Source: an uncultured Alphaproteobacteria bacterium
Lineage (GTDB): Bacteria; Pseudomonadota; Alphaproteobacteria; UBA7887
Reading direction: 5' to 3'
Length of the DNA stretch: 52,083 nt
NCBI GenBank assembly: GCA_902562525.1
Contig: CACETT010000004.1
Coordinates: 1 to 52,083, forward strand
Below the pieces are notes generated by a model, which did not search any database, was not told the DNA's origin, and saw nothing but the letters and a program-made list of their open reading frames with translations. The position numbers were made by a program, and so were the translations under genes. Numbering within the stretch: the stretch's first letter is position 1; each line of letters starts with the position of its first letter. Shown piece after piece: positions 5,375 to 51,783 of this stretch.

Positions 5375-5580
5375 CTCTCCAGAGGCTTCGACGCACAACA
5401 AACGATGGCGCCCCCTCTGTCTGAGAACCTGAGAGATTTCCCGCTGAAAAAACTCAGCGATTTACTCCTTCGGTGGGATTTGGGAGATAATGCCCCCAAA
5501 CCAGCTTTCCAGAGTTTTAACATCAGCGCGGTCCATTTGCCTGAGAGTTTCCGGGGCGGTTGCTCCTTCGGCTCTGACCT
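5375..5580 (-). promoter_or_regulatory. tandem glycine riboswitch upstream of gcvT
   Basis: Two glycine aptamers in series on the minus strand. Aptamer I spans about 5577-5509: it has GAGCCGAAGGAGCAA, then AACTCTCAGGCAAA and GGACCGCG, closing with CTCTGG. Aptamer II spans about 5487-5376: it has CACCGAAGGAGTAAA, a hairpin CGCTGA/TCAGCG, AATCTCTCAGG, CAGAGG, closing with CCTCTGGAGAG. These match the conserved blocks of the gcvT-type glycine riboswitch. The element sits between a good promoter (5616-5643) and gcvT, so it should make expression of the whole operon depend on glycine. The 3' strand of aptamer II P1 (GGAGA, pairing with TCTCC at 5487-5483) is also the probable ribosome-binding site. 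Confidence 0.93.
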
Positions 5581-5615
5581 GTATTAAGTCAGTATCTCCC
5601 GCGACGATGCTTCCT

Positions 5616-49918: not shown

Positions 49919-50383
49919 CTATGTTTTCCGAAAATTATCTAATTCTACTACTTTTTCAATTTTCGCTTCACTTTCACCAACTGTGGTTTCCTCTGCGGTA
50001 ACAGCCTCGTCAAAGGCTCGACTGCTATCTTCCCCCACAAATTGCAAGGTAAATTCCGCAAGGGGATCGGCAAAGCCTGTTAGTGCTTTTGTCGGGATTA
50101 CTAACTTATGGGGAATTTTATTAAAATTTAGTGTCACACTAAAGCCTTCGTTGGTAACTGCCAAATCCCAGAATTGATTTTGCAAAACTATCGTCATTTC
50201 ATCGGGGAATTGTTGCTTAAGATCAGCCCCGATTTTGGTTTCTGGCAACGCCGTCAAAAAGGAAATATACAAGTGGTGCCCTGGAGGCAGTCCATCTTCA
50301 GCGACGGACCTCAGAGTGCGTAACACGACTTGTCTGAGGGCGTCATTTACCATTTTTTTGTAATCTAATTTATTTTCTGTCAT
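49919..50383 (-). CDS. sspB: ClpXP adaptor protein SspB (alphaproteobacterial type)
   Basis: 154 residues. SspB binds the ssrA tag on proteins released by tmRNA and tethers them to ClpX for degradation by ClpP. The alpha-type pattern is clear: LDYKKMVNDALRQVVLRTL at the start, GHHLYISFLTALPETKI, then a tag-binding beta domain (FSVTLNFNKIPHKLVIPTKA, FADPLAEFTLQF), an acidic linker, and a C-terminal VELDNFRKT likely to be the ClpX-binding tail. Its start is only about 20 bases from the 3' end of the ssrA gene on the same strand, leaving little space for a separate promoter. There is no strong ribosome-binding site (AGAGC only). Confidence 0.92.
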   Translation of the reverse strand: MTENKLDYKKMVNDALRQVVLRTLRSVAEDGLPPGHHLYISFLTALPETKIGADLKQQFPDEMTIVLQNQFWDLAVTNEGFSVTLNFNKIPHKLVIPTKALTGFADPLAEFTLQFVGEDSSRAFDEAVTAEETTVGESEAKIEKVVELDNFRKT

Positions 50384-50404: not shown

Positions 50405-50695
50405 TATGTGGAGGGCTTCTGTTGCCCGGCGCCCCCCGAACCGCGCTTACCTAGTAATACTAAGCAGCAAGTGCCATTTCATTATCATTGGCAATTGTGT
50501 TTTTGACCCGGTAACGGTGGTATCATGCCGAGCAAAAACCATATCTTTATTGCCCATGTCGAACCTGGTTCGCCCCCATAAAGTACACGCTACGCAGCGC
50601 GAAAACGAAGACTTATGGTGGAGGCGCCGGGTACTGCCCCCGGGTCCATGCAGCCTATTCCATATGGCGTTTATCGCTATAGTCGGATGACCGAC
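50405..50695 (-). ncRNA. ssrA: two-piece (circularly permuted) tmRNA
   Basis: Permuted tmRNA read on the minus strand. The acceptor piece comes first (about 50695-50616): it ends CGCCTCC-A-CCA, with CCA encoded at 50618-50616. A 38-base intervening segment (50615-50578) follows, then the coding piece from GGGGGCG at 50577. GGGGGCG pairs with CGCCTCC in a 7-bp acceptor stem including the G3-U70 pair needed by alanyl-tRNA synthetase. A T-arm CCGGG/CCCGG has a 7-base loop. A P2-like helix joins the pieces (ATATGG at 50544-50539 with CCATAT at 50667-50662). The resume codon GCC at 50492 opens the tag ANDNEMALAA, ending at TAG (50462-50460). The exact 5' and 3' ends are estimates. Confidence 0.95.
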
Positions 50696-50700
50696 CCCCC

Positions 50701-50706
50701 AATATA
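50701..50706 (-). promoter_or_regulatory. possible -10 box of ssrA
   Basis: TATATT on the minus strand, followed by GGGGG and then the hairpin GTCGG-TCAT-CCGAC (50695-50682), which would be the 5' end of the precursor. Only the -10 box is persuasive; the -35 region (TTTCAA near 50729-50724) is poor. Confidence 0.4.
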
Positions 50707-50853
50707 TGCCTTATCAAGAAATATTGAAAGCCTATGCTTGGCGCAAACTTGGGGAATGAGGAGACAACGGATCTCTTTGTTGGCGAGTGTTTCGAAGCCT
50801 GGTACTGTGTTGGGAAATCTAGGCTCAATGTGTATTGATGTGAAGGATACCCT

Positions 50854-51783
50854 ATGACTGAAGATAATGGGGCGCCCGATGGGCAACCAAAAGGAGTTAT
50901 GACGCGGAGGGTTACTGTTTCCGCCCTTGAGGAGTACTTGTACAAGCCTTTACAGGTGCTTGATCATGGCTTTGTCCGTCTCATTGATTACATGGGTGAT
51001 GATAACGCTGTGGTCCAGGCGGCCCGTGTTTCTTATGGTTCGGGGACTAAACAGGTTAGGGAAGACCGGGGTTTAATCCGGTATCTCATGCGTCACCGGC
51101 ACACAACCCCATTCGAAATGTGTGAAATTAAATTCCACATCAAGCTTCCAATTTTTGTTGCTCGTCAATGGGTAAGACACCGCACAGCAAATATAAATGA
51201 ATACTCTGCCCGGTATTCCTATTTGGATAAGGAATTTTATATACCGCAACCGCAGCACCTAGCCACTCAATCTTCCATCAATCGGCAGGGGCGAGGCTCT
51301 GTGTTGGAGGGGCATGAAGCAGCCAGAGTTCTTAATTTGTTACAAGAAGATGCAAACAGAGCTCATGATCACTATGTGGAAATGATGAATGAAGATGAGA
51401 ATGGAGAAGTCCTCAGGCAGGACCGCCATGGGCTGGCCCGCGAGCTTGCGAGGATGAATTTAAGCCTCAATTTTTATACGCAGTGGTACTGGAAGGTAAA
51501 TTTACATAATTTAATGCATTTTCTTGCTTTGCGCGCTGACCCCCATGCCCAATATGAAATCCGTGCCTATGCCTCAGTAATGTTAAAGATTCTTAAAGAC
51601 TGGGTGCCACATGTGTATGAAGCATTTATTGATTACAGAGTTAATGCGTTTGAGTTATCTCAGCCCGCCCTATCGGTCTTGAGAAAATTAGTCGGGGGTA
51701 AGCCGATTGACCAGAAGGGTAGTGGTTTATCCCCCAGGGAGTGGCGCGAGCTAATGCTGGCCTTAGGACTTGAAAAGACTTAA
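50854..51783 (+). CDS. thyX: flavin-dependent thymidylate synthase
   Basis: Makes dTMP from dUMP with methylene-THF, FAD and NADPH. 309 residues, normal length. The ThyX motif appears as [13 protein letters not shown] (residues 108-120); the usual first serine of RHRxxS is Asn here, a variant I recall from other alphaproteobacteria. The C-terminal half has [21 protein letters not shown], the usual FAD/dUMP-binding segment (read in two parts). AAGGA precedes the ATG at 50854. It is divergent from ssrA-sspB, which it faces across about 150 bases. Confidence 0.95.

Follow-up and report, generated by a model that had tools for sequence, protein, structure and literature searches.

Organization of the ssrA-sspB locus

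The window (the whole 52,083-nt stretch of DNA that was analyzed) carries on its minus strand a circularly permuted, two-piece tmRNA gene, ssrA, followed on the same strand by sspB, which encodes the alphaproteobacterial SspB adaptor. tmRNA is the ribosome-rescue RNA, and nearly all alphaproteobacteria carry it as a split, circularly permuted gene; the two-piece ssrA is reportedly due to Keiler et al. (2000), with Caulobacter crescentus as the type case.

All parts of the gene lie on the minus strand. A conserved, promoter-like segment (50696 to 50733) lies within the Rfam alpha_tmRNA match and contains CTTTCA and, after an 18-nt gap, TATATT at 50706-50701; TATAT is invariant in an alignment of nine genomes of the window's order. 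Judging from its sequence, this segment may serve as the promoter. The TATATT box is absent from the list returned by a promoter scan, the consensus of which is of the E. coli type. The precursor 5' end forms a leader hairpin, GTCGG-TCAT-CCGAC (50682 to 50695, from the structure line of RF01849), with all five pairs kept in 9/9 genomes of the order. The acceptor piece (50616 to 50681; ARAGORN, Rfam) holds the 5' strands of the joining helices, the T arm CCGGG-GGCAGTA-CCCGG (50643-50627), and CGCCTCC-A-CCA (50626-50616), so that the CCA end is encoded. It is followed by an intervening spacer of exactly 38 nt (50615-50578), which would be removed and which holds a hairpin at 50601-50586. The coding piece GGGCAACAGAAGCCCTCCAC (50407 to 50577; ARAGORN, Rfam, alignment) begins with the acceptor strand GGGGGCG (50577-50571) and continues through the 3' strands of the joining helices, a PK1-like region, the tag frame, and a PK2-like end. 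The tag frame (50460 to 50492), GCC AAT GAT AAT GAA ATG GCA CTT GCT GCT TAG, encodes ANDNEMALAA and is supported by ARAGORN and by the alignment of relatives.

The initial annotation, made from the sequence alone, had proposed this order of pieces, the CCA end, and the 38-base spacer, all of which we could read directly, and had placed the tag in the same GCC-to-TAG frame, from which ARAGORN derived the same tag. Its interval of 50405-50695 agrees with the transcribed part of the gene, from the leader hairpin at 50695 to a 3' end at about 50407, and the fragments of about 80 and 170 bases that it expected correspond to predicted pieces of ~80 nt (50695-50616) and ~171 nt (50577-50407). Its warning that gene finders could stumble here was fair, as spurious open reading frames of 102 amino acids (plus strand) and 96 amino acids (minus strand) lie over the tmRNA gene. 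There is a precedent in Pelagibacter, the tmRNA of which was hard to find because the gene is permuted and was overlapped by a mis-started thyX (PMC2704228, excerpt). In the window, thyX (50854-51783, plus strand) lies upstream of the tmRNA gene and is divergent from it, as in many relatives.

Identity of the RNA gene

At this locus, ARAGORN called a permuted tmRNA with the tag ANDNEMALAA. The covariance search with the alphaproteobacterial model that the initial annotation had recommended gave a match on the minus strand (Rfam alpha_tmRNA, RF01849; 50733-50407, 247.2 bits, E = 1.1e-70) that covers the full model (positions 1 to 355) and far exceeds the gathering score of 50 bits. The tmRNA_permuted model (RF04321), which includes betaproteobacterial and cyanobacterial forms, also matched (149.9 bits; cutoff, 47). 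The tRNA-like domain is matched over the full length of this second model, yet the score is lower than that from the alpha-specific model, as its authors expect (PMC11915505, excerpt). Two Rfam models, ARAGORN, and the pair counts given below thus agree on the circularly permuted two-piece tmRNA that had been proposed.

A scan of both strands of the 52-kb window with a degenerate ANDN....AA* frame pattern gave one match, and the window's genome, a 1.43-Mb draft that is 63% complete, contains one alpha_tmRNA match. The same genome has one smpB (PF01668 match, 157-amino-acid frame, contig C18). Matches to alpha_tmRNA were obtained in 9/9 genomes of the window's order and in 266 of 289 genomes sampled across the Alphaproteobacteria. 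Chance is not a realistic explanation of the ARAGORN and Rfam matches at the window locus. The locus is almost certainly the one ssrA gene that this marine alphaproteobacterium has, and its circularly permuted form is the standard one for the class. It shares with RF01849 members the acceptor-spacer-coding order, G3-U70, the encoded CCA, the joining helices, the upstream box, and a tag of the form ANDN...AA, and it is an ordinary member of this known RNA family. As a gene it merely confirms an annotation.

The peptide tag in the context of the class

The tag of the window has 10 residues, whereas 12 is the commonest length among RF01849 members, and the initial annotation hinted that it was unusual in being short and in containing EM. 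This suggestion did not hold up in a census of 139 alphaproteobacterial loci (71 families sampled), from which 126 tags were readable; most of these loci are best-scoring matches, so the tag counts are not unbiased frequencies. Tags of 10 residues numbered 36/126 and came from 20 families, ANDNEMALAA itself occurred 11 times in six families, and EM was the commonest filler of 10-residue tags (14/36). Nearly all tags began with ANDN (119/126), and every one ended with AA (126/126). By SspB comparison, the closest named relatives include two genomes from marine metagenomes, MarineAlpha9_Bin6 (tag ANDNQLALAA) and MarineAlpha9_Bin7 (tag ANDNELALAA).

The AANDN end of the tag is bound by SspB and the ALAA end by ClpX, according to work on E. 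coli and Caulobacter, and the variable stretch of the tags falls between these two ends. A tag that is a lineage-specific oddity signaling an altered degradation pathway might be suspected from its 10 residues, fewer than the 12 found in 59/126 tags of the census. Such a departure is nevertheless very unlikely, given the spread of identical and equally long tags over several families, the retention of both the AANDN and ALAA ends, and the adaptor gene next door. The window tag is also as long as that of E. coli, AANDENYALAA, which consists of 10 encoded residues plus alanine (PMC8138137, excerpt). Neither ANDNEMALAA nor three related tags were mentioned in the literature searched, an absence that carries little weight, as tags are recorded mainly in databases.

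Much longer tags of 20 to 25 residues were found at two loci of family f21 (L019 and L104) and one of family f14 (L027), e.g., ANSNKAPVANFNRAYAAVAA. In these the ANxN motif seems to be doubled, so that, from their sequence, they might offer two SspB sites.

Conserved pairing and covariation

The acceptor stem GGGGGCG/CGCCUCC has seven pairs, of which the third is the G-U pair G3-U70 noted in the initial annotation, and it is kept in 9/9 genomes of the order. Over 32 pairs from the tRNA-like domain, the leader hairpin, and the joining helices, 99.0% of the paired cells are kept when the nine genomes are aligned, and pairing falls to 38 to 47% when the partner is slid by 1 to 3 columns. Six pairs show two-sided changes across the nine genomes, a number reached in 0/500 shuffles. 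All of this covariation lies in the two joining helices, with two pairs in AGCGA/TTGCT and four in GCCATAT/ATATGGT, bearing out the helix that had been proposed to link the pieces. Covariation confined to the helices that hold separate pieces together is what a two-piece RNA requires; the acceptor and T stems do not vary and thus, by covariation, speak neither for nor against the structure. The spacer is not conserved in sequence within the order and ranges there from 28 to 39 nt, as expected for a segment that is removed.

Visual inspection of the alignment shows complementary segments at 50530-50500 and 50440-50411 that may represent PK1 and PK2, the pseudoknots on either side of the tag in this family. 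When the coding piece was folded by itself, the result was a pseudoknot-free fold, which is uninformative about the real structure and was set aside.

These observations bear on whether the gene is intact. A decayed ssrA that has kept the family signature and lost its function is highly improbable: the model match is full length, the tag frame and the acceptor and T stems are intact, and the joining helices carry compensatory changes. The copy is the only one in the draft, the incompleteness of which is all that could be set on the other side, with nothing specific in favor of decay. The order's other genomes have the gene in the same place, beside sspB. That the region codes for a protein instead, in the overlapping 102- or 96-amino-acid frame, can be dismissed for practical purposes, as conservation tracks the RNA pairing and the tmRNA model, and the covariance matches and pair counts refute it.

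Linkage of ssrA and sspB

The neighboring sspB (49919 to 50383, minus strand) encodes a protein of 154 amino acids that matches Pfam SspB (PF04386, E = 2e-37); it had no match in NCBIfam. The protein is homologous over nearly its full length to SspB of known structure, PDB 2nys and Caulobacter SspB 2qas/2qaz (E ≤ 4e-27; about 4e-27 for 2qas/2qaz). Its C terminus, ...VVELDNFRKT, resembles the ...V.LD.FRK tail of Agrobacterium SspB (2nys), and by sequence it is a possible ClpX-binding tail. No functional difference from these proteins is apparent in the sequence.

The sspB ATG (50383) and the tmRNA end (50407) are separated by 23 nt, and no terminator-like site was found in a scan of this gap. 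From the short spacing and the absence of a terminator, cotranscription may be inferred, and the simplest reading is that ssrA and sspB probably share one primary transcript. The arrangement recurs widely. Among 60 relatives, 52 had both genes, and in 40 of these sspB lies downstream of ssrA on the same strand at less than 1 kb, with a gap of at most 217 nt in 39 of the 40 adjoining cases. In a larger set, sspB lies within 300 nt of ssrA at 98 loci from 59 families. If the linkage is truly conserved, a single promoter would govern both tagging and tag recognition across most of the class.

The adjacency of ssrA and sspB may already be known, as may the coupling of tag length to post-tag length described below. 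We saw no published statement of the adjacency in the titles, abstracts, and passages searched; one may be contained in Lessner et al. (2007), reportedly the key paper and the first to describe alphaproteobacterial SspB.

Another SspB came from a contig filed under Verrucomicrobiales (L061; CAJWKQ010000262.1), where SspB is 90% and fumarase 94% identical to the window's proteins. To judge by these identities, it is probably a mis-binned contig from a near relative of the window's genome.

Two forms of the RNA

Across the class, tags of 10 to 11 residues go with ~40 nt of RNA after the tag, and tags of 12 to 13 residues mostly with ~75 nt. The same division runs through the window's own family, where the genera g1, g4, and g5 have 10-residue tags, the genera g2 and g3 have 12-residue tags, and the post-tag RNA is ~33 nt shorter in the former than in the latter; the window tmRNA likewise has ~33 nt less post-tag RNA than family members with 12-residue tags. 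Both its 10-residue tag and its short post-tag segment are common to many other families. Within one family, the loci L001, L016, L022, L026, L029, L032, and L033 have a short tag together with ~33 nt less post-tag RNA than L005 and L006.

To quantify this, a tag was scored as short at ≤11 residues and a post-tag segment as short at ≤48 nt to the AACAGAA motif, and each combination was counted once per family. Class-wide, short tags with short segments (28) and long tags with long segments (32) far outnumbered long tags with short segments (8) and short tags with long segments (2). The coupling is strong at the family level (Fisher P = 3e-10, uncorrected for kinship), and the test stays uncorrected for relatedness because a kinship-free test on the SspB tree yielded three independent pairs, too few to decide. 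The SspB protein tree is poorly resolved: the best tree has 23 label changes, of which supported branches force only 2. The short form may have arisen once or a few times long ago, or repeatedly.

We tentatively suggest, at a chance that we rate as somewhat below even, that in most alphaproteobacteria ssrA and sspB form one transcription unit, in which tmRNA maturation also frees the sspB message, and that there are two forms of the RNA, which differ through joint change in tag length and post-tag structure, the window having the short form. Coupled shortening, if true, would be a natural experiment both on the dispensable portion of tmRNA and on the spacing of the SspB and ClpX sites.

Proposed route from transcript to degradation

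The gene identity, piece order, pairing, and adjoining sspB observed directly at the locus invite comparison with the family, in which tRNA-processing enzymes trim one transcript to give two RNAs that act as one tmRNA with SmpB (PMC3985003 and PMC11915505, excerpts); for the family, an excerpt of PMC3985003 cites Keiler et al. (2000) and Lessner et al. (2007). By analogy, processing, charging, tagging, and degradation in this genome would proceed as follows. The acceptor piece, the 38-nt spacer, and the coding piece would be transcribed together in that order. Removal of the spacer by tRNA-processing enzymes would leave two RNAs, held to each other by pairing in the acceptor stem and the P2-like helices. 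The acceptor piece would be charged with alanine, as directed by G3-U70, and the RNA and SmpB would enter stalled ribosomes, where translation would resume at GCC and rescued proteins would end in A-ANDNEMALAA. SspB, the product of the gene 23 nt downstream, would presumably bind their AANDN end and ClpX their ALAA end, leading to degradation by ClpXP.

A second structured RNA in the window

Elsewhere in the window, a glycine riboswitch (RF00504, 64 bits; 5519-5611, minus strand) lies upstream of a gene resembling gcvT and of two genes for gcvP-like subunits. It is followed by a weaker, second aptamer-like segment (~5510-5400), as in tandem glycine riboswitches.
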